Positions 28,188 to 62,865 of a stretch of 64,000 bases of DNA are shown here, one piece after another. The stretch spans positions 372,001 through 436,000 of the forward strand of contig NZ_VCQU01000003.1 in the NCBI RefSeq assembly GCF_012932915.1. The letters are read 5' to 3'. Position 1 is the stretch's first letter. The number at the start of each line of letters is the position of its first letter. Both the position numbers and the translations under genes were made by a program. Source of the DNA: Antrihabitans stalactiti (GTDB lineage Bacteria > Actinomycetota > Actinomycetes > Mycobacteriales > Mycobacteriaceae). The notes under the pieces are model-generated. The model was given only the letters and a program-made list of their open reading frames with translations. It had not been told where the DNA came from and did no database searches.

Positions 28188-28364
28188 CGGTAAGGCTCCA
28201 ATCTGGTGGATTTCTCTTGCCCTGAGTCTTTGCCGAACGGCCACCTCGTGCCAGCGCCGTTTTGTCGAACGCTCGATCTCGGATGCGCCATTTCGGCAGA
28301 TGTATCAAGTGATTTATATCAGCAGACTTATAACAGATCACGCACAAGAACCAGGAGAAACGCC
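28188..28364. promoter_or_regulatory. Divergent promoter region between the gab operon and the ATP-grasp operon
   Basis: The 177-bp gap holds no gene. Its right part is AT-rich against a GC-rich background (about 28298-28340), with a weak inverted repeat TTATA (28314-28318) and TATAA (28329-28333). It must contain promoters for both directions, but I cannot assign hexamers or a regulator. Confidence 0.35.
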
Positions 28365-47746: not shown

Positions 47747-47791
47747 TGTCGCGATCAGGCCACAACAGTCCGGACGGTCGCTCCCGGTGGG

Positions 47792-47815
47792 TACGATCGA
47801 TTCTCGTATCGATCG
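47792..47815. promoter_or_regulatory. Nested inverted repeats before the XRE-cupin regulator
   Basis: CGATCGA (47794-47800) and TCGATCG (47809-47815), with an inner TACGA/TCGTA pair (47792-47796 and 47804-47808), lie 14 bp before the regulator's ATG. The location fits autoregulation. The rest of the 82-bp gap shows no other feature. Confidence 0.4.
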
Positions 47816-47828
47816 GCAGGAGGTAGCG

Positions 47829-48419
47829 ATGGCGGCGCAGACAAGCGACCCCGAACCTGCTGCTGCAGTCGGCCTTCGCATCCGCGCGGTACGCAAAGCG
47901 CAACGTATGACGATCGAATCTCTTGCCGAGGCAAGCGGTCTCACCAAGAGCTTTCTGTCCAAGGTCGAACGCGGACGTTCGACTGCGTCGGTCGCTGCCC
48001 TCCTGCGGGTCAGCGAGGCGCTGGGCATTCCGTTGTCGAACTTGTTCGAGACGTCGACGACCCGCAGCGTGATTCGTGCGGGCGAGTACCCGGCGATCTC
48101 GTTCGGCGGCCACGCCCTGTCGGAGTACTTGCTGACTCCGCAGTCCGAACGTCGCATCCAAGTTTTGCTGTCGAAGATCGCCCCTGGTGGCGGTAGCGGT
48201 TCTGAGCCGTATCCGCTACCCGGCGAAGTGGAGTTCGTCTTCGTCGTGGAAGGGGTGCTCGAGGTGCGCTTCGCCGACGGCGTCGTGACGCTCGGTTCGG
48301 GTGACGCGCTGACCTTCGACCCCGCGTCGCCGCGGGCGTTTCTGGTACCGACTTCCGCGCCGACGACCACCGTGCTGTGGATGATCTGTCCGGCGCTCCC
48401 GCATACCGCGAGGCGTTAA
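47829..48419 (+). CDS. XRE family regulator with C-terminal cupin domain
   Basis: 196 residues. The HTH reads GLRIRAVRKAQRMTIESLAE and SGLTKSFLSKVERGRSTASV (about 16-58); the cupin domain covers about 110-190 (PLPGEVEFVFVVEGVLEV, GSGDALTFDPASPRAF). PuuR and similar polyamine or amino-acid regulators have this design, with a small ligand bound in the cupin. GGAGGT is 5 nt before the ATG. Its stop overlaps the convergent amidohydrolase gene by 4 nt. Confidence 0.87.
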   Translation: MAAQTSDPEPAAAVGLRIRAVRKAQRMTIESLAEASGLTKSFLSKVERGRSTASVAALLRVSEALGIPLSNLFETSTTRSVIRAGEYPAISFGGHALSEYLLTPQSERRIQVLLSKIAPGGGSGSEPYPLPGEVEFVFVVEGVLEVRFADGVVTLGSGDALTFDPASPRAFLVPTSAPTTTVLWMICPALPHTARR

Positions 48420-49479: not shown

Positions 49480-50439
49480 CTACTTGCGATTGGCCGCCAA
49501 GATCGAGATCAGTTCGTACGCAACGTGCGCCGCAGCGACTCCGGTTATCTCGGCATGATCGTAGACCGGCGCGACCTCGACGATGTCGGCACCGACGACA
49601 TTGAGCCCCTTCAGTCCGCGCAGCGTGTTGAGCAGTTCGCGGCTGGTCAGCCCGCCTGCCTCGGGCGTCCCAGTTCCCGGCGCATGGGCCGGATCGAGAA
49701 CGTCGATGTCGATCGACACATAGACCGGTCCGTCGCCGAGCCGAGCACGCATGCGATCGACCGCGCCGCGCACGCCGTCGACCTCGTAGTCGTCGGCCCG
49801 GACGATCTGAAAGCCCAGCGTCTTGTCGTCTTCGAGATCGGCGGCTGCATACAGCGGTCCGCGAATACCCATGTGCTGGCAGTGCTCGAGATCGAGCAAG
49901 CCTTCCTCGCTGGCCCGGCGGAACGGGGTCCCGTGGGTGTACGGCGCACCGAAGTAGGTATCCCAAGTGTCCAGGTGAGCATCGAAGTGCAGGACCGAGA
50001 TCGGTCCATGCAGTCGACTCAGAGTGCGCAGGAGCGGTAGGGCGATCGTGTGGTCGCCGCCGAGTGTCACCAGTGACGCGCCGTCCTCGCACAGCTTTTC
50101 CGACTCCGCCTCGATGGTCGAGATGGCAACCGAGAGGTCGAACGGGTTGACGGCGATGTCGCCTGCGTCAGCGACCTGCTGGACGCCGAACGGGTGAACG
50201 TCCTGCGCCGGGTTGTAGGGCCGCAGCAGTTTCGACGACGCACGAATGTGCCCCGGACCGAACCGGGCGCCCGGGCGGTAGCTCACGCCCGAATCGAAGG
50301 GCACGCCGACGACGAGGACGTCTGCGCGGGACACCTCGTCGGCGCGAGGGAGTCGCGCGAAGGTCTCCGGCCCGCAATAGCGGGGAACGCGCGTTGCGTC
50401 TACCGGTCCGACGATGGCTGGGCGCTCTTCCTGCGACAC
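49480..50439 (-). CDS. Ureohydrolase (agmatinase / guanidinobutyrase type), copy 1
   Basis: 319 residues. The manganese-binding motifs are intact: [31 protein letters not shown] and [22 protein letters not shown]. These enzymes release urea from guanidino compounds. Next to a nitrilase-family amidase and a DavB-type monooxygenase, 4-guanidinobutyrate is the more likely substrate than agmatine, giving GABA. It is divergent from those genes across a strong inverted repeat. A paralogue of similar length lies at 56769-57758. Confidence 0.9.
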
Positions 50440-50453
50440 GATTCGACCTCTCT

Positions 50454-50470
50454 GACAACGTGAAGTTGTC
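50454..50470. promoter_or_regulatory. Palindrome near the ureohydrolase start
   Basis: GACAAC-GTGAA-GTTGTC, 15 bp upstream of the ureohydrolase start codon. The position, at or just after the expected transcription start on the minus strand, fits a second operator. Confidence 0.4.
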
Positions 50471-50475
50471 CCTTA

Positions 50476-50577
50476 GTCAACTCTTGTGTCCTAAAGAAAT
50501 CAATGAATAGCAGCAAGTTCGCCGTCGAGCACCGCAAAATTGACCGCATTGTGGCCTCTTAGGACACAAGAGTTGAC
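50476..50577. promoter_or_regulatory. Long-range 19-bp inverted repeat in the divergent control region
   Basis: GTCAACTCTTGTGTCCTAA (50476-50494) and its exact reverse complement (50559-50577) are separated by 64 bp. At the outer edge of each arm stands an outward-facing TTGAC -35-like box (TTGACA at 50573-50578 on the plus strand, TTGACT on the minus strand). A regulator bound to both arms would control ureohydrolase 1 and the nitrilase-monooxygenase operon together. The 271-bp gap (50440-50710) holds no gene. Confidence 0.65.
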
Positions 50578-50710
50578 AAAGCGGTCCACATCTCTCAGTA
50601 TGGTCTGGATCACACGTCGAAACCAGACTGATCTTCGCTCACGCGGAGGTCGAAAGTTCGAGGATTGCAGTGCGTTCAGCACACGCCCACCGACGATGGG
50701 CACAGCCGTG

Positions 50711-51523
50711 ATGCGAGCGGCGCTTTACCAAGGGCCCGGCACTCCGGGCGACGTATCCGACAATGTGGCCGCGATTGCCGTAGCCGCCGCGAGAGCGGCG
50801 GAGGCCGGCGCCCACTTGCTCGTCACCCCCGAGATGTCCGCGACTGGTTACAACATCGGCGCCCTGTCTGCGCAACGTGCCGAACCAGCGCGCGGTGCGT
50901 TGTTCGACGCGGTCGCACAGATTGCCCGAAGGCACGGGATTGCAATCGTGTACGGCTATCCCGAGGCGGCTGACGGTGGGAATTACAACACCGTGCAAGT
51001 GGTGGGGCCGCGGGGTGAAAGCCTTGCGAGCCATCGCAAGACCCACCTCTACGGTGACCTCGACCGCGGCCTGTTCATCGAGGGTCACACCTTGGTGTCG
51101 CAGTTCGAGTTCCGCGGACTCACGTGCGGCCTCGCGATTTGCTACGACATCGAGTTTCCGGAGGTCGCCCGCGCACATGCCGTGGCAGGCACCGATGTGC
51201 TGATCGTGCCGACCGGGCTCATGGCGCCGTTCGAGGTCGTCAGCAAGGTTCTGGTTCCGGCGCGAGCCTACGAGAACCAGCTCTACGTCGCATACGTGAA
51301 CCGCTGCGACGTCGAGGCAGATCTGCGTTACTGCGGGCTCACCTGCGCGATCAGTCCGGACGGAGCCGACATCGCGCGCGCGGACGGTGCCGAGGACCTG
51401 CTGGTCGTCGACTTCGATCCCGCAGCTCTCGCAACGGGGCGAGCCATCAACACCCACCTACCAGACCGCCGGCAAGACCTGTACGGCTCTGTGTCACAGG
51501 AAGATTCAAGGAGCATCACATGA
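50711..51523 (+). CDS. Nitrilase-family amidase (DavA-like / 4-guanidinobutyramide amidase candidate)
   Basis: 270 residues with the carbon-nitrogen hydrolase triad Glu41 (TPEMSATGYN), Lys110 (HRKTHLYGD) and Cys144 (AICYDIEFPEVAR). Size and neighbours resemble 5-aminovaleramidase (DavA), which acts on the amide made by lysine 2-monooxygenase; with a ureohydrolase beside it, 4-guanidinobutyramide is an equally good substrate. No Shine-Dalgarno is seen; ATGs at 50696 and 50711 are possible and I chose the one matching the family's N-terminus. The stop overlaps the monooxygenase ATG. Confidence 0.85.
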   Translation: MRAALYQGPGTPGDVSDNVAAIAVAAARAAEAGAHLLVTPEMSATGYNIGALSAQRAEPARGALFDAVAQIARRHGIAIVYGYPEAADGGNYNTVQVVGPRGESLASHRKTHLYGDLDRGLFIEGHTLVSQFEFRGLTCGLAICYDIEFPEVARAHAVAGTDVLIVPTGLMAPFEVVSKVLVPARAYENQLYVAYVNRCDVEADLRYCGLTCAISPDGADIARADGAEDLLVVDFDPAALATGRAINTHLPDRRQDLYGSVSQEDSRSIT

Positions 51524-53211
51524 CGGTCCCGATCGGGCCCGAGGGCATTCACGACACAGCGGGCGCCCCACCGCTGACCATGTTCGGACCCGACTTCCCC
51601 TTCGCCTACGACGATTACGTCCGCGACTCGCGGGGCATCGGTTCGGTGCCGCCCGAGGCGTACGGCAAGCGCGTCGCCGTTATCGGCGGCGGCCTCTCCG
51701 GCATGCTCGTCGCTCGGGAACTTCTGCGGATGGGTCTGCAGCCGGTCGTGTACGAGGCCGATCAGATCGGCGGCCGGATGCGGTCGGTGACTTTCGACGG
51801 ACATCCCGGAATCACCGCGGAAATGGGGTCGATGCGCTTCCCACCGTCGTCGACGACGCTGTTCCATTACCTCGACGAGATGGGCTTGCAGACGAGCCCG
51901 TTCCCCAATCCACTGGCCGACGCGACGGCCAGCACTGTCGTGGATCTCAAGGGCGAGAAGCACTTTGCCCGGTCGATTGCCGATCTGCCCGACATCTATT
52001 CGGAGGTCGCGCAGGCCTGGGCACGGACCCTCGAAGACCATGCCGAGGCCCAGGCGCTCGGCGACGCGATTCGCAAGCGCGACGTCGCGCAGATCCGGGA
52101 GATCTGGGGCGAACTCGTCAAGCGGTACGACGATGAAACGTTCTACGGCTTTCTGTGCAAGTCCGATGCGTTCGCGCAGTTCTCGCTGCGCGAAATCTTC
52201 GGCCAGGTGGGTTTCGGTACCGGCGGTTGGGATACCGATTTCCCGAACTCCATCCTCGAAATCCTTCGCGTGGTGTGCACCGCGGCCGACGACCATCACC
52301 GTGGCATCGTCGGTGGCTCGCAACAACTTCCGATGCGGCTCTGGAGCACGCCCGTCGAGGGTGCCGCGCACTGGCCGGCCGGTACGTCGGTGCAGTCACT
52401 GCATGACGGGGGAGTGCATCGGCCCCGCGTCGTCGAATTGCGCCGGACCCATCCGGACAACTTCACCATCACCGATCAGTCGGGACGGATCGACACGTTC
52501 CCTGCGGCGGTCTTCACCGGCCAGGGCTGGATGCTGCTGAACACGATTCGGTCCGACGAGCGACTTATTCCGATCGACCATTGGACCGCCATCGAACGCA
52601 CGCACTACATGGGTTCGTCGAAGGTGTTCGTGCTGGTCGACCGCCCGTTCTGGAAGGACATCGATCCGGCCACCGGACGCGAGGTCATGAGCATGACGTT
52701 GACCGACCGGATGAGCCGCGGCACGTACTTGCTCGACTTCGGTGACGACAAGCCAGGCCTCATCTGTTTGTCCTACACCTGGGCGGACGATTCGCTGAAG
52801 CTGTTGCCGCTCAGTCCGGCCGAGCGGATGGACTTGATGCTCAAGTCGCTGCGCGAGATCTATCCCGATGTCGATATCCGCAAGCACATCATCGCCTCGC
52901 CGGTCACGCTGTCGTGGGAGACCGAGCGCGACTTCATGGGTGCGTTCAAAGCCAACCTGCCCGGTCACTACCGCTACCAGCGTCGCTTGTTCACGCATTT
53001 CAAGCAGGACAACCTCGCTCCGGAATACCGTGGATTCTTCATGGCGGGCGACGACGTGTCGTGGACGGCAGGCTGGGCCGAGGGCGCAGTGCAGACCGCG
53101 TTGAATGCCGTCTGGGGCGTGATGAATCACTTCGGTGGTCGCACCGCCGAGGGCAACCCCGGACCTGGCGACGTATTCGACGACATCGCACCGATCGAGC
53201 TCGGCTCATGA
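51520..53211 (+). CDS. FAD-dependent L-amino-acid 2-monooxygenase (DavB-like; lysine or arginine)
   Basis: 563 residues. FGPDFPFAYDDYVRD at the N-terminus, the FAD loop VAVIGGGLSGMLVA (about 51-64), EADQIGGRMRSVTFDG, EMGSMRFPPSSTTLFHYLD, GQVGFGTGGWDTDFPNS and the end GDDVSWTAGWAEGAVQTALN closely follow Pseudomonas lysine 2-monooxygenase as I recall it. Such enzymes decarboxylate and oxygenate an amino acid to the amide one carbon shorter. AAGGAG is 7 nt before the ATG. The adjoining ureohydrolase suggests arginine to 4-guanidinobutyramide; lysine to 5-aminovaleramide is the alternative. Confidence 0.9.
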   Translation: MTVPIGPEGIHDTAGAPPLTMFGPDFPFAYDDYVRDSRGIGSVPPEAYGKRVAVIGGGLSGMLVARELLRMGLQPVVYEADQIGGRMRSVTFDGHPGITAEMGSMRFPPSSTTLFHYLDEMGLQTSPFPNPLADATASTVVDLKGEKHFARSIADLPDIYSEVAQAWARTLEDHAEAQALGDAIRKRDVAQIREIWGELVKRYDDETFYGFLCKSDAFAQFSLREIFGQVGFGTGGWDTDFPNSILEILRVVCTAADDHHRGIVGGSQQLPMRLWSTPVEGAAHWPAGTSVQSLHDGGVHRPRVVELRRTHPDNFTITDQSGRIDTFPAAVFTGQGWMLLNTIRSDERLIPIDHWTAIERTHYMGSSKVFVLVDRPFWKDIDPATGREVMSMTLTDRMSRGTYLLDFGDDKPGLICLSYTWADDSLKLLPLSPAERMDLMLKSLREIYPDVDIRKHIIASPVTLSWETERDFMGAFKANLPGHYRYQRRLFTHFKQDNLAPEYRGFFMAGDDVSWTAGWAEGAVQTALNAVWGVMNHFGGRTAEGNPGPGDVFDDIAPIELGS

Positions 53212-54200
53212 CGAACGAGGTCGTGGTTATCGGAGCCGGCGTCATAGGGCTGTCGTCCGCGCTGGAGTTGGTCCGGGCGGGCAAGCGCGTCACCGTGATC
53301 GCGGATCGCAAACCCGCAGAGACTGTTTCGGCCGTCGCTGCGGCAATCTGGGAACCGTACGACGCATTTCCGCGCGACATGGTCTTGCGCTGGTCGCTCG
53401 ACGCGCTGACGACCTTCAACGAACTCGCCGCAGACCCCAGCACCGGCGTCCACCTACGCGAAGGCGTGAATCTGCAACGTGAGGCCGACAAGCACGCGTG
53501 GTGGGCAGGCGGTGTGGTCGCGGCGCGGCCAGCGTCGCCTGACGAGTTGCCGGACGGCGCCATTTCCGGCGAGGTCTGCACGCTTCCGGTCATCACGATG
53601 CCGGTCTACCTCGAATGGCTGCTGCAACGGTGCTCGGAAAGCGGCGTGACGTTCGAGTGGCGTTCGTTGGCGTCGCTCGACGAGGTCGGGCACGGGGATT
53701 GCCCGATCGTGGTTGCCGCCGGGCTCCGGGCGGGTGAGCTGGTCGCGGGCGAGAAGTTGGTCCCGGTTCGCGGTCAGATCGTGCGGCTCGCCAATCCCGG
53801 GTTGACGCGTTGGTACATCGACGAAGACAACCCGTCGGGCACGACGTACATCATTCCGCGGGTCGACGATGTGATCTGCGGCGGCACGAACGAGCCAGGG
53901 GTGACGGTGGCCGATGCGGATCCCGTTGTGGCGGAGGCTATTTTGGCCCGTGCACGTCGGCTCGAGCCGATGCTCGAGCAGGCCGAGGTCCTCGCCGATG
54001 TGGTCGGGTTCAGGCCCGGCAGAGAGTCGGTCCGCTTGGATGCGACCGAATATTCCGATCGTCGCGTCGTGCATTGCTACGGGCACGGCGGCGCGGGTGT
54101 CACCACTTCGTGGGGCGCTGCGCGCGATGTTGTCCGACTCGTGGATGGCAAACCTATTGAAAACTCAGATAGCAGCAACTTTTCGAGGAGCACGACATGA
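53208..54200 (+). CDS. FAD-dependent D-amino-acid oxidase-like protein
   Basis: 330 residues of the DAO family. VVVIGAGVIGLSSALEL forms the FAD loop (about 5-21), AAIWEPYDAFPRD corresponds to the substrate side, FRPGRESVRLDA has the conserved Arg, and GYGHGGAGVTTSWGAA is the typical C-terminal FAD motif (here CYGHGGAGVTTSWG). It would oxidise a D-amino acid (or a related amine) to an imine or 2-oxo acid with hydrogen peroxide. ATGA overlaps on both sides place it in the monooxygenase-permease operon. A RidA protein that could hydrolyse the imine lies at 61130. Confidence 0.87.
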   Translation: MTNEVVVIGAGVIGLSSALELVRAGKRVTVIADRKPAETVSAVAAAIWEPYDAFPRDMVLRWSLDALTTFNELAADPSTGVHLREGVNLQREADKHAWWAGGVVAARPASPDELPDGAISGEVCTLPVITMPVYLEWLLQRCSESGVTFEWRSLASLDEVGHGDCPIVVAAGLRAGELVAGEKLVPVRGQIVRLANPGLTRWYIDEDNPSGTTYIIPRVDDVICGGTNEPGVTVADADPVVAEAILARARRLEPMLEQAEVLADVVGFRPGRESVRLDATEYSDRRVVHCYGHGGAGVTTSWGAARDVVRLVDGKPIENSDSSNFSRSTT

Positions 54201-55642
54201 CGTCGTTGGCCCAGCAAGTATTTCGACGCAAGCCTGTCGGTCAGATGGAAGACGAGACCGGCGCCGACACCGGCAAGAGCGAACTCGCTCGGACTATCGG
54301 CTTGGCGCAGTTGTCGATGTTCGGCATCGGCGCCACCATAGGCACCGGCATCTTCTTCATTCTGTCGCAAGCGGTGCCGGTGGCAGGTCCGTCGGTGATC
54401 ATTTCGTTTGTGATCGCCGGCGTCGTCGCGGGCCTCACTGCAATCTGTTATGCCGAAATGGCCGGCGCAGTGCCGGTTTCGGGATCTTCGTACTCGTACG
54501 CGTACGCGACCATGGGGGAAGTGGTCGCAGTCGGGGTCGGCGCGTGTCTGCTGCTCGAGTACGGCGTTTCCGCGGCGGCCGTCTCTGTCGGTTGGTCGCA
54601 ATATCTCAATCAGTTGCTGAACAACATATTCGGATTCCAGATACCCGAAGCACTGTCTCAAGCACCCGAGCAGGGTGGGGTGATCAACCTTCCTGCGGTC
54701 GTCCTCGTCTGCCTGTGTGGCTTCCTCCTGATCCGTGGCGCGAGTGAGTCTGCAAAGACGAACGCAGTGATGGTGATGATCAAGCTCGGAATCCTCGGCA
54801 TGTTCGTCGTCATCGGCATAACCGGTTGGAACAGTGACCATTTCTCGAACTTTGCTCCGGCCGGCCTCACCGGAATCACGTCGGCGGCAGGCATCATCTT
54901 CTTCTCCTACATCGGACTCGACGCTGTCTCGACGGCCGGCGAGGAAGTGAAGGATCCGCACAAGAACATGCCGCGGGCGATCCTGATAGCGCTCGTCGCG
55001 GTGACTACCATCTACATCGCTGTCGTTGCCGTCGCGCTCGGTGCCCAGTCGACCGACAAGTTCGAAGGTCAGGAAGCCGGCCTCTCCGCGATCCTCGAAG
55101 ATATCGTCGGATCGACTTGGCCGGGAACGGTTCTCGCAGCTGGTGCCGTGATTTCGATCTTCAGCGTCACGCTCGTCGTCATCTACGGACAGACCCGCAT
55201 CCTGTTCGCCATGTCGCGCGACGGGATCATTCCGGCCGTGTTCCACAAGGTGAATCCCCGTACGCTGACACCCGTCCCGAACACGATCATCGTCTGCATT
55301 GTCATCAGCGTGCTTGCCGGCTTTGTTCCGATCAACTTCCTCGCCGAGATGACCAGCATCGGCACCTTGGTTGCATTCCTAGTCGTGTCGATCGGCGTAA
55401 TCATCTTGCGCCGTACTGCGCCGAATCTCCCACGAAGCTTCAAGGTCCCCGGGTATCCGATCACCCCGATCCTCGCGATCGCGGGCTGCATCTGGATCAT
55501 CCAGGACCTTCGGATCGTCACCATCTGGGTCTTCATCATCTGGGTGTCGGTTGCAATGCTCTGGTATTTCGCCTACGGCATGAAGCACTCGCATCTCGGC
55601 CGAGGCGAGAAGGCCGGGCTGATCGCGAAAGAACAGTCATGA
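54197..55642 (+). CDS. APC-superfamily cationic amino acid permease (CAT-like)
   Basis: 481 residues with about 12 membrane segments. GLAQLSMFGIGATIGTGIFF is the TM1 signature, AEMAGAVPVSGSSYSYAYAT TM2-3, FFSYIGLDAVSTAGEEVKDP the TM6 region and RILFAMSRDGIIPAVFHKVN the later loop, all typical of CAT-type basic amino acid transporters. It fits import of arginine or lysine for the adjacent monooxygenase. ATGA overlaps link it to the oxidase upstream and the UspA gene downstream. Confidence 0.9.
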   Translation: MTSLAQQVFRRKPVGQMEDETGADTGKSELARTIGLAQLSMFGIGATIGTGIFFILSQAVPVAGPSVIISFVIAGVVAGLTAICYAEMAGAVPVSGSSYSYAYATMGEVVAVGVGACLLLEYGVSAAAVSVGWSQYLNQLLNNIFGFQIPEALSQAPEQGGVINLPAVVLVCLCGFLLIRGASESAKTNAVMVMIKLGILGMFVVIGITGWNSDHFSNFAPAGLTGITSAAGIIFFSYIGLDAVSTAGEEVKDPHKNMPRAILIALVAVTTIYIAVVAVALGAQSTDKFEGQEAGLSAILEDIVGSTWPGTVLAAGAVISIFSVTLVVIYGQTRILFAMSRDGIIPAVFHKVNPRTLTPVPNTIIVCIVISVLAGFVPINFLAEMTSIGTLVAFLVVSIGVIILRRTAPNLPRSFKVPGYPITPILAIAGCIWIIQDLRIVTIWVFIIWVSVAMLWYFAYGMKHSHLGRGEKAGLIAKEQS

Positions 55643-56571
55643 CCCTCGTCGTCGGCTACGCCGCAGACGGAAGAAGTGCGGCGACAATACATCTGGCGGC
55701 TCTGCTCGCCAGGTCGCTCCACGAACCTGTGGTGGTCGCTGCCGTCGTGCCCGCCGCCCCGTTGCCGAGCATGGCTCGGGTAGACGAGGAGTATCGGGAG
55801 TACACGCGCGCCGAGGCCGAGCATGCGCTCGCCCAGGCACGCAAGGTCATGCCCGACGATATCGACGCGACTTATGTTGTCCAGGAAGCGCGTTCGTCGT
55901 CCTCTGGTCTGCTCGCGTTGGCAGAGAAACACGACGCCAGCCTCATTGTGCTCGGCTCGTCGTCGGCAGGCGTCTTCGGTCACGTTGCTCTCGGCAGCGT
56001 CACCTCGCGGCTGCTGTACAGCTCCCCGATACCGGTTGCGCTGGCGCCCAGAGGGTTCCGCATCCGTGCCGGAGATGTGGTCACACGCGTGACGGCCGCA
56101 TACGACGGGTCCGCGCATCAGGATGAGCTGGTCCTCGCGGCAGCTGCTGTCGCTGCCAGTGTTGGAGCGTCACTTCGACTGTCGGCCTTCGCCGTTCGAG
56201 TTCCCGCCGCGTACACCACGCGGTTGGGCACGGAAGGCGACGCACCGATCGAGGCCGAGTGGACGGCAGCCGTCGAACGCGAAACCGCGGCCGCGTTGAA
56301 GCGGGTCGCGGCGCTACCCGAGGTCCCGGACACGGTCGAGTCGGTCATCGGCTACGGCCGAACCTGGGCCGAGGCGCTCGACGACGTCGAATGGTTACCC
56401 AACGACGTCCTCACCATCGGCTCGAGCTCCGCCGGTCCGATAGCGCGCGTGTTCCTCGGCTCCCGCGCAGCAAAGATCGTCCGCCACTCGCCCGTCCCCG
56501 TTGTCGTGGTGCCTCGGTCCGCAGCCGAGCGGATCGTCGACGAGGCCGAACGTGAAGTCGTCGCCGACTGA
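55639..56571 (+). CDS. Tandem universal stress protein (UspA), second copy
   Basis: 310 residues with two Usp domains (about 1-145, 150-300). Nucleotide-binding ends are LGSSSAGVFGHVALGSVTSR and IGSSSAGPIARVFLGSRAAK. It is the last gene of the operon, overlaps the permease by 4 nt and is followed by a strong terminator. Its organisation repeats that of the UspA-permease pair at 41677-44116, and both proteins share the sequence VPVALAPRG after domain 1. Confidence 0.88.
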   Translation: MTLVVGYAADGRSAATIHLAALLARSLHEPVVVAAVVPAAPLPSMARVDEEYREYTRAEAEHALAQARKVMPDDIDATYVVQEARSSSSGLLALAEKHDASLIVLGSSSAGVFGHVALGSVTSRLLYSSPIPVALAPRGFRIRAGDVVTRVTAAYDGSAHQDELVLAAAAVAASVGASLRLSAFAVRVPAAYTTRLGTEGDAPIEAEWTAAVERETAAALKRVAALPEVPDTVESVIGYGRTWAEALDDVEWLPNDVLTIGSSSAGPIARVFLGSRAAKIVRHSPVPVVVVPRSAAERIVDEAEREVVAD

Positions 56572-56583
56572 CGCTTCCACACG

Positions 56584-56617
56584 AAAGGGGTGCGGCTCCA
56601 TGAGCCGCACCCCTTTT
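56584..56617. terminator. Intrinsic terminator after the monooxygenase-permease-UspA operon
   Basis: AAAGGGGTGCGGCT pairs perfectly with AGCCGCACCCCTTT around a 5-nt loop (CCATG), followed by a further T. The stem is 14 bp and GC-rich, 13 bp after the UspA stop. The symmetric A and T ends allow use in both directions. Confidence 0.85.
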
Positions 56618-56697
56618 CGGGCCAGGTCCCCTCAGCCACAGCTCGTTCAGCCGCACCCGCTTTCGGGATCCGCACCCGGCGTTGGGAGTTCGCGTGA

Positions 56698-56754
56698 CGA
56701 AGGGGCTGTTACGCAGCCTCCCTCTCGGGCGATGCTTGCGTAACAGCCCCTTCG
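56698..56754. terminator. Hairpin terminator between convergent operons
   Basis: 18-bp perfect arms (56698-56715 CGAAGGGGCTGTTACGCA and its complement at 56737-56754) with a 21-nt loop. It lies 15 bp beyond the stop of ureohydrolase 2 on the minus strand. No clear T-tract. With 56584-56617 it insulates the two convergent operons. Confidence 0.7.
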
Positions 56755-56768
56755 GCGAGGGTTTGGAC

Positions 56769-57758
56769 CTACTTCGAGACGAGACCTGCGTACCAGGATA
56801 CGAATTCGTAGGCGAGGTGAGAGGCCGCGACGCTGGTGATTTCGGCGTGGTCGTAGGCGGGAGCGACCTCGACGACGTCGGCGCCGACCAGGTTCAAATG
56901 CCGCAGGCCACGGAGGATCTCCAGCAACTCGCGACTCGTCATGCCGCCGGCTTCGGGGGTGCCGGTGCCGGGTGCGTGGGCGGGGTCGAGGACGTCGATG
57001 TCGATGGAGACGTACAACGGGCGATTTCCGATTCGTTCGCGGAGCGCGTCGACGATCTCGTCGACACCGCGGCGGAAGACGTCGGCGGAGGTGTAGATGC
57101 CGAAGCCGAACCGGCGGTCGTCTTCGAGGTCCTTCTTGCCGTAGAGCGGACCGCGGGTGCCGACGTGCGCGAGGGCTTCGGTATCGACGATGCCTTCCTC
57201 GACTGCGCGACGGAACGGCGTGCCGTGGGTGTACTCGGCGCCGAAGTAAGTGTCCCAGGTATCGAGGTGAGCGTCGAAGTGCAGCAACGCAACCGGGCCG
57301 TGCACCGACGCGACGGACCGCAACAAGGGCAGCGCGATGGTGTGGTCGCCGCCGATGGTGACGAGCTTCGTGCCGGCCTTGGCGAATTCGCCCGAGGCGC
57401 CTTCCAGGGTCTCGATGGCTTCGTTGATGTTGAACGGGTTCAGTGCGACGTCGCCGGCGTCGGCAACCTGCATCGCGGCGAATGGCGAGATGTCGACTGC
57501 CGGGTTGTACGGGCGCAGAAGGCGACTCGCTTCGCGAATCGCCGACGGACCGAACCGGGCGCCCGGCCGGTAGGAGACGCCACTGTCGAACGGGACACCG
57601 AGGACGGCTACGTCGGCCGACTCGACTTCGCCGAGCATCGGGAGGCGGGCGAACGTTGCGGGACCGGCGAACCGTGGCACCAACGAGGAGTCGATGGGGC
57701 CGACGCGGCCGCCCTCCGTGATCCTTGGAATCTGGATCGATGCCCGACCGTTGCTCAT
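56769..57758 (-). CDS. Ureohydrolase (agmatinase / guanidinobutyrase type), copy 2
   Basis: 329 residues. [36 protein letters not shown] and [20 protein letters not shown] carry the manganese ligands. It is very similar to the protein at 49480-50439 in these parts but differs in the middle ([13 protein letters not shown]-like region). I chose the ATG at 57758 with GGAG 7 nt upstream; the frame reaches 57818. Its promoter element matches that of the SDR/aldolase-ThDP control region, so it probably works with that operon. Confidence 0.9.
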
Positions 57759-57790
57759 GCCTATCTCCGCTTCTGACCTTGCTGTTGGGA

Positions 57791-57840
57791 TGAAATCTCT
57801 TGCCTCACACCTTAGCACGTAAATAGATCAGATGGTATAT
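57791..57840 (-). promoter_or_regulatory. 50-bp control element, copy 1 (ureohydrolase 2 promoter)
   Basis: Ungapped, 37 of 50 bases match 58674-58723. Shared blocks are TGAAATCT, CTCACAC, TAAATA and TATAT. It lies 33-82 bp before the ureohydrolase start in an AT-rich stretch. Both copies point the same way, each before a minus-strand gene. Confidence 0.6.
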
Positions 57841-57846
57841 AAAAAT

Positions 57847-58614
57847 CTACCAGGCGACGGCGCCGGCTCGGTCGAAGAACTGCCCAGTCGGACCGTCGTT
57901 GTCGAGCAACGCCATCTCGACGACGATCGCGGCGGCGTCAGCGGCCCTCGTCGGTGCCGCGGCGCGATTGGCCGGACCGCCCAGGTCGGTCTGGACCCAG
58001 CCGGGGCAGATCGAATTGACCTTGATCGCGCTCTCTGCCAAGGCTTTCGAGAGTGCAATGGTCAGACCGTTCAACGCGGCCTTGGACATCTGATACGCCG
58101 GCACGACCTGACCGTAGTAAGGCGAGGTCGGGTCGGACTGATCTGCCAGCGAACCCATCGTGCTGGACACGTTGACGATGCGGCCGGCTGTAGATTTGTG
58201 GAGCAGCGGCAAGAAGTACTTCGTCGTCGTGACGGCGCCAAGCACGTTGGTGTCGAACGTCTTACGAAATGCGTTCAGGTCGAGGGGCCAATCGATATTC
58301 GGTCTTGTCACCTCGGGCAAGATCCCCGCATTGTTGACGAGAATGTCGACTCGGCCGTATCGGGACGCTACGTAATCGGCGGCGTGCTCGACGCTCGTCT
58401 CGGACGTGACGTCGAGCGCCACGGCGTGCGCGTACACGCCTTCGCGCCGCAATTGTGCGGCGGCGCATTCGCCTCGAACGCGGTCCCGGGCTCCGATCAG
58501 CACCGTCACGTCGGCTTGTCCAAGCAGCCGCGCGGTCGCCAGACCGAGTCCGCGATTACCGCCTGTGATCATGGCGATTTTCGTCGAAGGGTGAATGTCA
58601 GCAGTCGAAGTCAT
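57847..58614 (-). CDS. Short-chain dehydrogenase/reductase
   Basis: 255 residues. TGGNRGLG (about 18-25) with GARDR after beta-2 (Arg, so NADPH is likely), NNAG in LVNNAGILPE, Ser in NVSSTMGS and AYQMSKAAL as YxxxK. The wording resembles plant-type carbonyl reductases. It is divergent from the aldolase-ThDP operon across the 58674-58723 element and runs toward ureohydrolase 2, 88 bp away. It may reduce an aldehyde or ketone intermediate of that pathway. Confidence 0.85.
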   Translation of the reverse strand: MTSTADIHPSTKIAMITGGNRGLGLATARLLGQADVTVLIGARDRVRGECAAAQLRREGVYAHAVALDVTSETSVEHAADYVASRYGRVDILVNNAGILPEVTRPNIDWPLDLNAFRKTFDTNVLGAVTTTKYFLPLLHKSTAGRIVNVSSTMGSLADQSDPTSPYYGQVVPAYQMSKAALNGLTIALSKALAESAIKVNSICPGWVQTDLGGPANRAAAPTRAADAAAIVVEMALLDNDGPTGQFFDRAGAVAW

Positions 58615-58673
58615 GCTCGAAGCCTGGTCGTGGACGCTGTCGATTGCTGGCGGTATTCGGACGCCTGCTTCTC

Positions 58674-58723
58674 TGAAATCTTCTGGCTCACACTCTGGTG
58701 CTTAAATAAATCACCTGATATAT
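58674..58723 (-). promoter_or_regulatory. 50-bp control element, copy 2 (SDR / aldolase-ThDP divergent promoter)
   Basis: Matches 57791-57840 at 37 of 50 positions. It contains ATCA-CC-TGAT, a short inverted repeat, and lies in the 144-bp gap between the divergent SDR and class II aldolase genes. A regulator recognising both copies would co-regulate the SDR, ureohydrolase 2 and the ThDP operon. Confidence 0.6.
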
Positions 58724-58758
58724 TTAAAGCCTTCCGCGAACGCCCGAGGGGATACTCG

Positions 58759-59505
58759 ATGACTGTATTGACGCTCGACGCCACGGTAACGGCGGAGGCC
58801 GAGCTGCGTCGCGAGCTGGCCGCCGTGTACCGGCTTCTTGCACATTTCAAGATGACCGATCTCATTTTCACCCATGTGTCCGTTCGGATCCCGGGGCCGG
58901 AGCATCACGTCCTCATCAACCCCTACGGGCTGTTGTTCGAGGAGATCACGGCGTCGAACCTCGTGAAGATCGGCCTCGACGGGGAACTCGTCGAGCCGTC
59001 CGAATACGTAGTCAACCCCGCAGGATTCGTCATCCATGGCGCGATTCACGCCGCCCGCGAGGACGCGCAATGCGTGCTGCACACCCATACGAAGGCCGGC
59101 TGTGCCGTGGCCGCAACAGAACACGGCCTGCTGCCGGCGAACCAGATTTCGATGGAGTTCTACCGCCGCGTCGGCTACCACGACTACGAGGGCATCGCGC
59201 TGAACATGGCGGAGCGCGAACGCATCGTCACCGACCTCGACAAGCACCCTGCGCTGATCCTGCGCAACCATGGACTGCTGACCGTCGGCGAGACCCCGGC
59301 GCAGGCATTCTTGCGAATGTTCTATCTCGACAAGGCATGTGAAATTCAGATCGCTGCGCAAGCTGCTGGCGAATTGCGGCTGCCGAGCAATGAGGTCGCC
59401 GAGTACACCGCAGGCCAATTCGCCGCCGACGACGACGGCTACGACCTAGCTTGGGCCGCGTTGCTGCGGCTCCTCGATCGCACTCAACCCGACTACAAGA
59501 AGTGA
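58759..59505 (+). CDS. Class II aldolase/adducin family protein
   Basis: 248 residues. Zinc ligands of the family are visible: CVLHTHTKAG (His108, His110) and LRNHGLLTVG (His171). NPYGLLFEEITASNLVKIGL is the typical phosphate or substrate loop region, although substrates of the adducin-like branch often are not phosphorylated. GAGGGG is 7 nt before the ATG. First gene of an operon with a ThDP enzyme, RidA and an aldehyde dehydrogenase. An aldol cleavage or a decarboxylation is possible; no substrate can be named. Confidence 0.85.
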   Translation: MTVLTLDATVTAEAELRRELAAVYRLLAHFKMTDLIFTHVSVRIPGPEHHVLINPYGLLFEEITASNLVKIGLDGELVEPSEYVVNPAGFVIHGAIHAAREDAQCVLHTHTKAGCAVAATEHGLLPANQISMEFYRRVGYHDYEGIALNMAERERIVTDLDKHPALILRNHGLLTVGETPAQAFLRMFYLDKACEIQIAAQAAGELRLPSNEVAEYTAGQFAADDDGYDLAWAALLRLLDRTQPDYKK

Positions 59506-59510
59506 ACTCC

Positions 59511-61133
59511 ATGACTCGCAACGGTGGCGACCTCGTCGTCGAAACTCTCGAAAAACTCGGTTACGAAAAGGTTTTCGGTATTCCGGGTCAGCACGCGCTC
59601 GGACTGTTCGACGCGCTGACGCGTAGCAGGCTCGAATTCGTCAGCTCGCGGATCGAGAACAACGCCGCTTTCGCTGCAGACGGCTATGCGCGCACCAGCG
59701 GCCAGCCCGCAGCGCTCTTCGTATCGACGGGGCCGGGTGCGCTCACCGCACTTGCTGGACTTCAGGAGGCCTACGCCACCTCGGTTCCGATGGTCGTCGT
59801 GTCCAGTCAGGTGCCGCGAGTGGGATTGGGCGGCAAGCGAACCGGTCACCTGCATCAACTCGACGATCAGACGCTCGCTGCCCGCAATGTCGTGAAGTCG
59901 ACGACGCTGATCCAGCAGAGCGCTGAAATTCCGTCGGCCATCGCACGAGCGCACAGCGAGGCGGTCTCGCACCCGCAGGGACCGGTGTGGATCGAGATTC
60001 CGCAGGACATTCTGCTGGACGACACCACCGTGCCGCCGGTCGTCGACGTGCAGACCAACGTCGTCCCGGTAGCCGCGAGGACGGAGTTGCTCGATGCAGC
60101 CGCGGCCGCGCTCGACGCTGCCACGCGAACCGTCATCATCGCCGGCGGCGGCGTGCGTCGCTCCGGTGCCGAGGCTGAACTGCTGGCACTCGCCGAGGCA
60201 TTGCGCGCGCCGGTCGTGACGAGCCCGGGCGGCAAGGGCGCGTTTCCGTGGACCCATCCGTTGTCGATGCAGTCGTGGATCGAGGACCAATACACGACCG
60301 ACGTGCTCGAGAGCGCCGACATCGTCGTCGCCATCGGAACGGCAATCGGTGAAGTCACGAGCAATTACTTCACGATGCGACCGCAGGGATTGCTCATCCA
60401 CATCGACGCGGAATGCCGGGTCTTGGAGTCCCACCTGCCCGCGCTGGCCATCCACGCCGACGCACGTGATGCGCTGGCCGGACTCGTCAAGCGGGTGCAG
60501 GCGCGCACGGCGGACGGGGTCGCCGAGCGGGAAACCCGGGAGCTGCTCGACAAAGTGAGCGCTCGACTCGACAGCCAGGACCTCGCCAAGGAACGGGGAA
60601 TCCTCGCTGCGATCCGCGAAGGTGTTCCGGATGACGCAACGACGTTCTGGGACATGACAATTGCAGGTTACTGGGCGTGGTCGTGCTGGGATGCGCGCAG
60701 CGGACAGTTCCATTCCGCCCAGGGGGCGGGAGGCATAGGGTGGGGCTATGGCGCCGCATTGGGTGGCGCCGCGGCAGGCAACGGTCGCGTCCTGGCGGTC
60801 AGCGGTGACGGCGGGGCGATGTACTCGATCGCAGAACTTGCCGTGGCGCGTCAGCACAACCTGCCCGTCACGTGGCTCATCGTCGACGATGGCGGCTACG
60901 GAATTCTGCGTGAGTACATGAATGCGACCTTCGGCAAGGCGACCGCCACGGAACTGTCCCGACCAGATTTCGTTGCCCTCGCTGAATCCTTTGCGGTCCC
61001 GGCGCAATATACGACGCCTGCAGAACTGGCGGACGTGCTCGCGACCAGCTGGATCGCCGACGGACCGAATGTCGTTGTCCTGCAAGAAACATTGGCGATG
61101 TTCGCCCCCACCCACCTGGAGAATCTCGAATGA
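59511..61133 (+). CDS. ThDP-dependent enzyme (2-oxo acid decarboxylase / acetolactate synthase-like)
   Basis: 540 residues with the three-domain plan of this superfamily. The ThDP-activating Glu49 is in SSRIENNAAFAADGYAR, the ThDP/Mg motif GDGGAMYSIAELAVA starts near residue 431 and ends DDGGYG, with Asp-Gly-Gly where Asn is usual at its end. A FAD-like central domain (VTSPGGKGAFPWTHP) is present. It could decarboxylate 2-ketoarginine to 4-guanidinobutyraldehyde, as AruI does in Pseudomonas, or be a carboligase. It precedes RidA (ATGA) and an aldehyde dehydrogenase. Weak ribosome site. Confidence 0.85.
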   Translation: MTRNGGDLVVETLEKLGYEKVFGIPGQHALGLFDALTRSRLEFVSSRIENNAAFAADGYARTSGQPAALFVSTGPGALTALAGLQEAYATSVPMVVVSSQVPRVGLGGKRTGHLHQLDDQTLAARNVVKSTTLIQQSAEIPSAIARAHSEAVSHPQGPVWIEIPQDILLDDTTVPPVVDVQTNVVPVAARTELLDAAAAALDAATRTVIIAGGGVRRSGAEAELLALAEALRAPVVTSPGGKGAFPWTHPLSMQSWIEDQYTTDVLESADIVVAIGTAIGEVTSNYFTMRPQGLLIHIDAECRVLESHLPALAIHADARDALAGLVKRVQARTADGVAERETRELLDKVSARLDSQDLAKERGILAAIREGVPDDATTFWDMTIAGYWAWSCWDARSGQFHSAQGAGGIGWGYGAALGGAAAGNGRVLAVSGDGGAMYSIAELAVARQHNLPVTWLIVDDGGYGILREYMNATFGKATATELSRPDFVALAESFAVPAQYTTPAELADVLATSWIADGPNVVVLQETLAMFAPTHLENLE

Positions 61134-61483
61134 CCTACGTGAACCGGAAATCCTCCGTCGGCTCGTTCAGTTACGCGCGCCAGGTCGGCCCGTTCGTGCA
61201 GGTTTCCGGGCAGCTCGGGTTGACCGATGGAGCCACCACTATCGGCGAACAGACCACAGCATCGCTCCGGAGCGTCGAAGCGATTCTGGCTTCGGCCGGG
61301 TTGGGCTGGTCGGACGTGTTGACGGTGCGGGTCCACCTGACGTCCGACGACCTGTTCGACGAATTCGACGCCGCATACGCGGCGATCGTCCCCGAGCCGT
61401 TCCCCGCGCGAGTTACCGTCTCGTCGGGGCTGGCGCCAGGAGCGCTCGTCGAGATCGACGCACTCGCCGTGATCGCGCAGTAG
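61130..61483 (+). CDS. RidA family enamine/imine deaminase
   Basis: 117 residues of the RidA/YjgF family: GPFVQVSGQLGLTDG, SLRSVEAILASAGLGWSDVL, VRVHLTSDD and the end PGALVEIDALAVI. The usual catalytic Arg of the RidA subgroup (before VxSGLAPGA) is present as ARVTVSSGL. It speeds hydrolysis of reactive enamines or imines made by amino acid oxidases and PLP enzymes. It overlaps the ThDP gene by 4 nt, so imine hydrolysis before decarboxylation is a natural reading. Confidence 0.88.
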   Translation: MTYVNRKSSVGSFSYARQVGPFVQVSGQLGLTDGATTIGEQTTASLRSVEAILASAGLGWSDVLTVRVHLTSDDLFDEFDAAYAAIVPEPFPARVTVSSGLAPGALVEIDALAVIAQ

Positions 61484-61518
61484 TGACACCTCATCCCAAA
61501 ATCCAAAAGGAGTAACAA

Positions 61519-62865
61519 ATGACCGAATACGCCGTCACCGATCCAGCTACCGGTGAGGTCGTTGCCGAATACCCGACTGCGACGGACGCGGAGGTTGCTG
61601 CGGCGATCACCGCTGCCGCTGAGACGGCGCGGACGTGGCCGCGCACCTCGACCGTCGCGGACCGCGCGGCCTTGATTCGCCGGGTCGCCGAACTGCACAC
61701 CGAGCGACGCGACCAACTCGCGGACGTCATCGTCCGGGAGATGGGCAAACCGCGCGAAGAGGCACTCGGCGAGGTCGACTTCTGCGTTGCAATCTACGAG
61801 TACTACGCCGACAACGCCGAGGCGTTTCTTGCAGACGAGTCGATCACGCTGCTGGGCGGTCAGGGCAGCGCCGTGGTCAAGCGCGGACCGATCGGCGTGC
61901 TCCTCGGCATCATGCCGTGGAACTTCCCGTACTACCAGGTCGCCCGGTTCGCGGGCCCGAACCTGGTCGTAGGCAACACGATTCTGCTCAAGCACGCGCC
62001 GCAGTGTCCCGAGTCGGCTGAGCTGCTCGCGCTGCTGTTCCTCGAGGCCGGATTCCCACAAGGCGCCTACATCGACATCCGCGCGACCAACGACCAGGCC
62101 GCCACGATCATCGCCGACCCGCGAGTGGCCGCGGTGTCGCTCACCGGTTCCGAGCGTGCCGGTGCCGCGGTCGCCGAGATCGCCGGCCGCAACCTCAAGA
62201 AATGCGTCCTCGAGCTCGGCGGGTCCGATCCGTTCATCGTGCTCTCGTCCGACGACCTGGACGCGACCGTCGATGCCGCCGCCGCGGCTCGCCTCGACAA
62301 CACCGGTCAGGCCTGTAACGCCGCCAAGCGCTTCATCGTCGCCGACGACCTGTACGACGCATTCGTCGAGAAGTTCACCGCACGCCTCGTCGGGGCAGGC
62401 GACGGCATTGCGCCGTTGTCGTCGGTCCGTGCTGCGGAGGGTTTGGAAGCGCAAGTTGCAGCCGCGGTCGCGAACGGCGCAACGGTGACGTCGGCCGGTG
62501 AGCGGAAGGGAGCCTTCTTCCCGCCGGCGGTCCTGACCGGCGTGACGTCGGACAATCCCGCCTACCAGCAGGAATTCTTCGGCCCGGTCGCGACCGTGTA
62601 CCGCGCCGAATCCGAAGACGAAGCAATCGCCATCGCCAACGACACACCGTTCGGCCTCGGTTCGTACGTCTTCACCACCGACGCCGATCAGGCTGCGCGC
62701 GTTGCGGATCGCATCGACGCCGGCATGGTGTTCGTCAACGGCGTGGGCGCCGAGGGCGCGGAGTTGCCGTTCGGCGGTATCAAGCGGTCCGGCTTCGGAC
62801 GTGAGCTCGGCAAGTACGGCATCGAGGAGTTCGTCAACAAGAAACTGATCCGCACTGTCGGCTAA
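61519..62865 (+). CDS. Aldehyde dehydrogenase (succinate-semialdehyde dehydrogenase-like)
   Basis: 448 residues, shorter at the N-terminus than GabD. IMPWNFPYYQVARF, LTGSERAGAAVA, VLELGGSDPFIVLSSDDLD (Glu) and NTGQACNAAKRF (Cys, about 265) are the functional parts. AAAAGGAG stands 6-7 nt before the ATG. It ends the aldolase-ThDP-RidA operon and could oxidise 4-guanidinobutyraldehyde, succinate semialdehyde or another pathway aldehyde. Its stop overlaps the convergent hydrolase gene by 3 nt. Confidence 0.9.
   Translation: MTEYAVTDPATGEVVAEYPTATDAEVAAAITAAAETARTWPRTSTVADRAALIRRVAELHTERRDQLADVIVREMGKPREEALGEVDFCVAIYEYYADNAEAFLADESITLLGGQGSAVVKRGPIGVLLGIMPWNFPYYQVARFAGPNLVVGNTILLKHAPQCPESAELLALLFLEAGFPQGAYIDIRATNDQAATIIADPRVAAVSLTGSERAGAAVAEIAGRNLKKCVLELGGSDPFIVLSSDDLDATVDAAAAARLDNTGQACNAAKRFIVADDLYDAFVEKFTARLVGAGDGIAPLSSVRAAEGLEAQVAAAVANGATVTSAGERKGAFFPPAVLTGVTSDNPAYQQEFFGPVATVYRAESEDEAIAIANDTPFGLGSYVFTTDADQAARVADRIDAGMVFVNGVGAEGAELPFGGIKRSGFGRELGKYGIEEFVNKKLIRTVG

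Follow-up and report, generated by a model that had tools for sequence, protein, structure and literature searches.

Two gene modules with ureohydrolases in Antrihabitans stalactiti and their probable routes from arginine to γ-aminobutyrate

Two described systems come closest to the locus treated here, the arginine oxygenase pathway and the arginine transaminase pathway. The first two steps of the former, leading to 4-guanidinobutyrate, were described in Streptomyces, where they provide a polyketide starter (PMC5082578). An L-amino acid oxidase/monooxygenase (L-AAO/MOG) from Pseudomonas sp. AIU813 displayed monooxygenase kcat/Km values of 200 for ornithine, 74 for lysine and 24 for arginine, with an oxidase/monooxygenase ratio of 0.26 on arginine (PMC5832979). 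This study concerns two gene modules of Antrihabitans stalactiti found in a window of 64,000 nucleotides (C20:372001-436000) from a genome of 26 contigs and 6,760,149 bases. The observations comprise gene content, linkage, palindromes and phylogeny; from these we infer substrates and reactions, and it appears fairly probable that the modules encode two routes to one guanidino acid, both ending in a ureohydrolase and γ-aminobutyrate (GABA).

Profile and domain scans of the window proteins placed all named genes at 46-64 kb. Module 1 consists of genes for an amidase, a monooxygenase, a D-amino acid oxidase-like enzyme (DAO), an APC permease and a universal stress protein (Usp), each start overlapping the preceding stop, with the ureohydrolase 1 gene divergent. 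In module 2 the order is ald2, a thiamine diphosphate (ThDP)-dependent enzyme, RidA and an aldehyde dehydrogenase (ALDH), a short-chain dehydrogenase/reductase (SDR) and ureohydrolase 2 being divergent. A genome search recovered two arginase-family genes, both in the window. Comparisons were based on 251 genomes of the family, which are related to each other, so that counts across genomes are not independent. ORFs in the relatives' loci were called by codon-position G+C, a procedure that misses some genes, and their gene clusters were named from one or two scanned members each. The nearest relative in the searches was genome G015, with a monooxygenase 94% identical to that of the window.

The FAD-dependent L-amino acid monooxygenase (51520..53211, + strand) was closest, among solved structures, to the L-AAO/MOG of AIU813 (3we0, 710 bits, 55% identity). 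Its relatives at E 1e-60 occurred in 76 of the 251 family genomes and formed two identity bands. Within the high band (at least 64% identity), a ureohydrolase was found within 5.7 kb in 57 of 58 genomes, the exception (G206) having a fragment at a contig edge; in the low band (54-57%), which groups with AIU813, the corresponding number was 0 of 18. This count leaves out the 16 weakest or second-piece ureohydrolase rows, none of which came from a monooxygenase-bearing genome. Likewise, a tree of 41 rows, including seven of the 18 low-band sequences, split the window clade from the AIU813 group with support 100/99. Module 1 thus fits the arginine oxygenase pathway that a first-pass annotation had placed in the window, a claim strengthened by this comparative evidence, and its monooxygenase is probably arginine-acting, as judged from sequence.

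The two monooxygenases have Arg102, Trp235, Asp238, Tyr416, Trp418, Phe473 and Trp516 in common, including the retained binder of the side-chain charge, Asp238. The window enzyme differs by Ala for Cys254, His for Gln258 and Gly for Ala515; only positions 258 and 515 differ among the substrate-site residues compared, residue 254 lying behind the cage. Ala254, His258 and Gly515 were common to the 40 rows of the high band, some of which repeat one locus, and Cys254, Gln258 and Ala515 were present in AIU813 and four of the seven low-band rows. The other three displayed Ala, Gln or His, and Gly at these positions, and the pattern is therefore not diagnostic.

The amidase of the nitrilase superfamily (CN_hydrolase; 50663..51523, +, start codon uncertain; PF00795 157 bits; amidase 3hkx 140 bits) also adjoins the monooxygenase in relatives, and by family and position it is a probable 4-guanidinobutyramidase. 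The DAO-family FAD oxidase (53208..54200, +; PF01266 139 bits; 1dao 142 bits) overlaps both the monooxygenase and permease genes and hence belongs to module 1. Its membership in the ThDP operon was ruled out by these overlaps, and its earlier grouping with the ThDP set has to be abandoned. It is a possible entry for D-arginine, and close copies (at least 72%) occurred only in G000, G015 and G042. The operon continues with the amino acid permease (54197..55642, +; TIGR00909 449 bits, under the cut-off of 557) and ends with Usp (55639..56571, +; PF00582 100 bits). As initially proposed, amidase, monooxygenase and ureohydrolase 1 surround one control region (50472..50581), in which two facing copies of the element TTAGGACACAAGAGTTGACWAAG were found (50472-50494, - strand; 50559-50581, + strand). 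This 23-bp element did not occur in 100 shuffles, and both copies are kept in G015 and G042. The XRE-cupin regulator encoded at 47787..48419 (+; PF01381 and PF07883) is, by its position, a candidate binder; regulators of like type were also seen near monooxygenase and ThDP loci of relatives. An Amidohydro_2 gene (48416-49462), with an 82% identical copy in G015, lies between this regulator and ureohydrolase 1.

Ureohydrolases 1 (49480..50439, -) and 2 (56769..57758, -; longest ORF starting at 57818) are 67% identical to each other. For both, the ranking of solved relatives was headed by GbuA of P. aeruginosa (3nio, 274 and 281 bits). GpuA and proclavaminate amidino hydrolase came next, agmatinases scored lower, and both enzymes are probable 4-guanidinobutyrases. 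A ureohydrolase tree (54 rows) was fed with 22 ThDP-linked, 20 monooxygenase-linked (of 57) and 11 Ald2-linked enzymes and two genus loci; four identical rows were dropped and one locus (L193) lacked a full-length match. Ureohydrolase 2 shared a clade (100/100) with all but one of the 22 ThDP-linked enzymes, and ureohydrolase 1 was placed in the other half, together with 15 of the 16 distinct monooxygenase-linked ones. With their different operators, this agrees well with the idea, already put forward, of two differently regulated ureohydrolases. Partners are nevertheless swapped in G012, where a type-2 enzyme adjoins the monooxygenase, and in L136, where a type-1 enzyme adjoins the ThDP gene, and Ald2-linked ureohydrolases occur in both halves. 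These observations suggest a common substrate, as would be predicted from two routes converging on one acid.

In module 2, a near-perfect palindrome precedes ald2 (operator at 58703..58727) and a degenerate copy precedes ureohydrolase 2 (57820..57844); the element is close to TATATCA-NN-TGATATA. It had no occurrence in 100 shuffles, and its 25-bp pattern with up to three mismatches gave no further site in the 6.76-Mb genome. With up to two mismatches, the palindrome was found at three window sites (58707, 57824 and 28301) and never in 100 shuffles. The strict pattern TRWATCANNTGATWYA occurred exactly at three places of the genome, 58707 (before ald2), 28301 (gabT-gabD) and C20:438512 (before the symporter-TetR unit). 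One mismatch added two more places, and a reversed control pattern matched one place within one mismatch. A chance origin of the repeats was rejected on the shuffles and the genome-wide pattern searches. The third palindrome (28301..28316) has gabT on one side and a divergent gene (28365-30020, +) on the other; this gene has a coding-like codon composition and no Pfam match at 1e-5. Among ten relatives, the exact palindrome was present in all seven that have ald2 and the symporter, adjoining those genes, and was not found in the remaining three (G061, G056 and G012), which are all without an ald2 match. From the neighbourhood, the TetR protein would be its binder.

The repeated element had been thought to join the ThDP, RidA, ALDH and ureohydrolase 2 genes. 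The element is real, but that description left out ald2 and the SDR gene (57847..58614, -; PF00106 158 bits) located between the two operator copies. The stretches fetched from G015 and G042 lack this SDR and have a single element between ureohydrolase 2 and ald2. An ancestral two-operator design was rejected on this ground, and the second copy most simply came with the insertion of the SDR. The shared element would thus seem to go back to a divergent promoter which the SDR later split.

Ald2 (58765..59505, + strand, as a GTG ORF, with an ATG at 58759) has a class II aldolase/adducin fold (PRK07044 360 bits, cut-off 207) and is distantly related to NovR (95 bits) and TqaM (83 bits). NovR/CloR and TqaM are iron oxygenases catalysing oxidative decarboxylation of 2-oxo or 2-hydroxy acids (PMC13111500, PMC11880133). 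The metal ligands His106, His108 and His169 were conserved in 28 of 28 Ald2 rows, four of them from Pseudomonadota plasmids. Since true class II aldolases share these histidines, the three-His site alone does not decide for an oxygenase. The place of the aldolase Glu, which we take to be the catalytic Glu73 of FucA, was occupied by Gly in all 28 rows.

At E 1e-40, 23 of the 251 family genomes had an Ald2 match, and in 14 of them it stood beside or near a ureohydrolase. In ten, it lay 15-54 bp upstream on the same strand (the ureohydrolase match of G142 being in two pieces); in three, belonging to the window's genus, the genes were divergent; in G028 they were 1.9 kb apart. The other nine were G006, G023, G082, G194, G203, G206, G214, G229 and G249. 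Across the phylum, at E 1e-60, Ald2 was restricted to its own genome and one of 345 others. A D-2-hydroxyacid dehydrogenase cluster was present in 18 of the 21 listed Ald2 loci. Neither the window and its two flanks nor the stretches from G015 yielded a relative of this enzyme, an argument against an argininate route in the window's genome. In G042, Ald2 and ureohydrolase 2 are retained, no gene for a ThDP enzyme, RidA or ALDH adjoins them, and the whole genome gave no ThDP match at E 1e-90.

The 12 operon-type Ald2 loci (L192-L202 and L209) all carry an Lrp-type regulator, an importer permease, a binding protein and a D-2-hydroxyacid dehydrogenase, ten carry a Rieske oxygenase and five a TIM-barrel-like protein (AP_endonuc_2 30.1 bits, cut-off 31.1, in one of two scanned). 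A GABA transaminase gene is next to the ureohydrolase in five (one scanned, 773 bits over 639). As a side observation, this recurring operon, mostly with a ureohydrolase, seems to encode a pathway that acts on an unknown guanidino amino acid. On the Paraburkholderia plasmid pSYMBR3459 (L230), the neighbours of an Ald2 relative are an aminotransferase, a ThDP enzyme (PRK08199, 764 bits with a cut-off of 539), a FAD oxidoreductase and an ALDH.

The ThDP-dependent enzyme (59508..61133, +, three TPP domains) is a probable 2-ketoarginine decarboxylase. Its best model is unnamed (358 bits, cut-off 571) and the AruI-type model came second. Relatives at E 1e-90 were recorded in five of the 251 family genomes and were frequent in Micrococcaceae. 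Among the best 80 of 104 places encoding a relative, 79 had a ureohydrolase within 2.5 kb, the exception (L086) being cut by a contig end; 70 of these best 80 had both genes on one strand with a gap below 200 bp, and 74 had an XRE-cupin match. The linkage was also observed in G231 and G168. In an annotated Arthrobacter copy the order is symporter, cupin regulator, 'agmatinase' and ThDP enzyme, and the SSS symporter of the window's genome is 64% identical over 500 aa to the symporter of the Arthrobacter ureohydrolase-ThDP locus. This SSS gene and an accompanying TetR gene (BetI-type C-terminal domain) are located shortly past the edge of the window (L171). An Arthrobacter-like ureohydrolase-ThDP locus also occurs in a record titled Vibrio cholerae strain 35D (L133), perhaps by contamination. 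RidA (61130..61483, +; PF01042 75 bits) and the SSADH-like ALDH (61519..62865, +; PRK09406 462 of 730 bits; 3vz0 388 bits) complete the operon, the predicted substrate of the latter being 4-guanidinobutyraldehyde or succinic semialdehyde. No arginine:pyruvate transaminase was found among the 16 genes at 46.2-63.6 kb and four L171 flanking genes scanned, to which the search was confined.

GABA as end product is supported by the strict palindrome before gabT-gabD and by the GABA transaminase linkage in five relatives, as had been anticipated when gabT and gabD were assigned to the end of the path. The GABA transaminase gene gabT (26841..28187, -; longest ORF to 28244) scored 781 bits with PRK06058 (cut-off 639), and the gabD-like succinate-semialdehyde dehydrogenase (25361..26818, -) 551 of 646 bits with TIGR01780. 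The third entry through putrescine that was also envisaged is possible and weakly supported: a copper amine oxidase stands above its cut-off (928 over 651 bits), but the two genes at 39-41 kb do not reach theirs, with 274 of 382 bits for agmatine deiminase and 188 of 410 for AguB.

In the explanation we favour, the permease of module 1 would import arginine and the monooxygenase would act as an arginine 2-monooxygenase, turning L-arginine and O2 into 4-guanidinobutyramide. The amidase would then yield 4-guanidinobutyrate and ureohydrolase 1 GABA and urea, DAO being an addition to the module in this genus. Module 2 would form a regulon serving a 2-oxo (or 2-hydroxy) acid derived from arginine and taken up by the SSS symporter; DAO, or the monooxygenase acting as an oxidase on the side, might be alternative sources of the 2-oxo acid. 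One carbon would be removed by Ald2, by the ThDP enzyme together with ALDH, or by both, to give 4-guanidinobutyrate; ureohydrolase 2 would release urea and GABA, and gabT-gabD, carrying the same palindrome, would finish the path. The first-pass annotation had proposed such a two-route path; its two gene sets are there, but it left out Ald2, the SDR, the symporter and the TetR gene. For Ald2 itself we propose, speculatively and with considerable doubt, that it is an Fe(II)/O2 oxygenase converting 2-ketoarginine into 4-guanidinobutyrate and CO2 in one step (in relatives perhaps argininate, via the D-2-hydroxyacid dehydrogenase). The main flux would pass through either Ald2 or the ThDP enzyme.

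Several observations weigh against these assignments. Gly515 is shared by three low-band monooxygenases. Both ureohydrolases have Arg at the place of GbuA Arg72, a residue that could contact the carboxylate according to a model (PMC9772407), but GpuA also has Arg there, and the residue therefore speaks for a guanidino acid and not for its chain length. At the place of GbuA Met161 both have Tyr, as in the 3-guanidinopropionase GpuA; the 4-guanidinobutyrase of A. niger likewise has Tyr (PMC10833137), so that residue 161 does not define the activity and was dropped as a test. Ald2 belongs closer to adducin and proteins without known reaction than to NovR/TqaM. In five genomes (L203-L207), it occurs with LysR, SSS, TetR and D-2-hydroxyacid dehydrogenase genes and the same palindrome, with no adjacent ureohydrolase, and the four plasmid-borne relatives examined from Pseudomonadota stand in unlike contexts, one with carnitine genes and another with the aminotransferase, ThDP, FAD oxidoreductase and ALDH genes described above. 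ALDH resembles SSADH, and the ThDP enzyme reached only 338 bits with NF005712, the AruI-type model of 5-guanidino-2-oxopentanoate decarboxylase, under the cut-off of 500. As to the operators, the patterns for module 1, module 2 and the strict palindrome were written from the sites themselves, and in the ten relatives the exact palindrome was not found at gabT.

Other explanations have to be weighed for the individual enzymes. The monooxygenase could be a lysine/ornithine enzyme of the DavB type whose ureohydrolase neighbourhood is coincidental. Its identity to AIU813, an enzyme preferring ornithine and lysine over arginine, and the kept Asp238 are in favour of this, but the ureohydrolase linkage (57/58 versus 0/18), on which we rejected it, and the separate clade make it very improbable. 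No lysine genes were identified beside the low-band monooxygenases, weak amidase matches far under the cut-off being seen in two of the five proteins scanned there. A lysine-only enzyme is unlikely. That both ureohydrolases are agmatinases, as automatic annotation has them, seems if anything even more remote: the TIGR01230 agmatinase model did give 235 and 234 bits, above its cut-off of 174, yet the reading was rejected on the nearest solved relatives, GbuA, GpuA and proclavaminate amidino hydrolase, and human AGMAT, which also bears the name agmatinase, did not hydrolyse agmatine (PMC9772407).

Two further explanations concern module 2. DAO and RidA might convert D-arginine into 2-ketoarginine, to be processed by an AruI-like ThDP enzyme, ALDH (giving 4-guanidinobutyrate) and ureohydrolase 2, Ald2 being incidental. 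All four proteins are present, the ThDP enzyme is linked to ureohydrolases and its second-best model is precisely the 5-guanidino-2-oxopentanoate decarboxylase. Still, we regard this as a possibility of rather modest weight, because DAO sits in the module 1 operon with close copies confined to three genomes of the genus, and because G042 keeps DAO, Ald2 and ureohydrolase 2 without the ThDP match and without RidA or ALDH beside them. The score of 338 of 500 bits is a further objection, and it does not sustain the AruI-type label given earlier: as four relatives scored 320-336 bits, these models place the enzyme in a sister group rather than within the AruI type. It is, finally, unlikely that module 2 serves another guanidino compound (e.g. 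an N-substituted arginine or gamma-hydroxyarginine), in which case Ald2 would be a true aldolase or the ThDP enzyme a carboligase. The Rieske oxygenase and D-2-hydroxyacid dehydrogenase of the relatives' Ald2-ureohydrolase operons, which exceed the needs of arginine, point in that direction; the Gly at the aldolase Glu place in every row and the GABA transaminase linkage, indicative of a four-carbon guanidino acid, point away from it.

The favoured explanation provides an arginine route known for its chemistry with genes that can be tested, and it sets a probable clade of arginine monooxygenases apart from the lysine/ornithine enzyme group. It also suggests that guanidino acids are the substrates of those enzymes of this group that bear the name agmatinase. 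With the TetR regulon, inducers could be screened to reveal the true substrate of module 2, and the Ald2-ureohydrolase pairing allows a concrete reaction to be predicted for a family whose annotation as 'class II aldolase' comes with none. If the role proposed for Ald2 were true, this enzyme would give Mycobacteriales an unrecognised entry into arginine breakdown and would be exchangeable for the ThDP enzyme, the partner of the ureohydrolase in Arthrobacter; the window's genome has both behind one promoter.

Compared with the arginine oxygenase pathway, module 1 has one candidate gene per step and a permease; it differs in that these genes stand in an operon with a ureohydrolase, a DAO and a stress protein. 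Its monooxygenase belongs to another clade than the L-AAO/MOG of AIU813 (3we0) and is ureohydrolase-linked. Module 2 shares the ThDP enzyme, ALDH, ureohydrolase and GABA route with the arginine transaminase pathway, represented by AruH/AruI in P. aeruginosa and the AspC/IlvB1 network in S. meliloti (PMC7268258). Yet it has no transaminase in the unit, its ThDP enzyme is under the AruI-type cut-off, and Ald2, RidA and the TetR-SSS unit are added. Ald2 is related in sequence to NovR/CloR and TqaM and has their three-His site, but it is distant from them, in the PRK07044/adducin branch. In the gbuA region of P. aeruginosa (PA1416-PA1421), as in module 2, a ThDP enzyme and an SSS symporter are presumably encoded close to the guanidinobutyrase. 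Module 1 is thus probably a route of known kind, and module 2 probably a partly new mix of enzymes with an unexpected aldolase-like protein.

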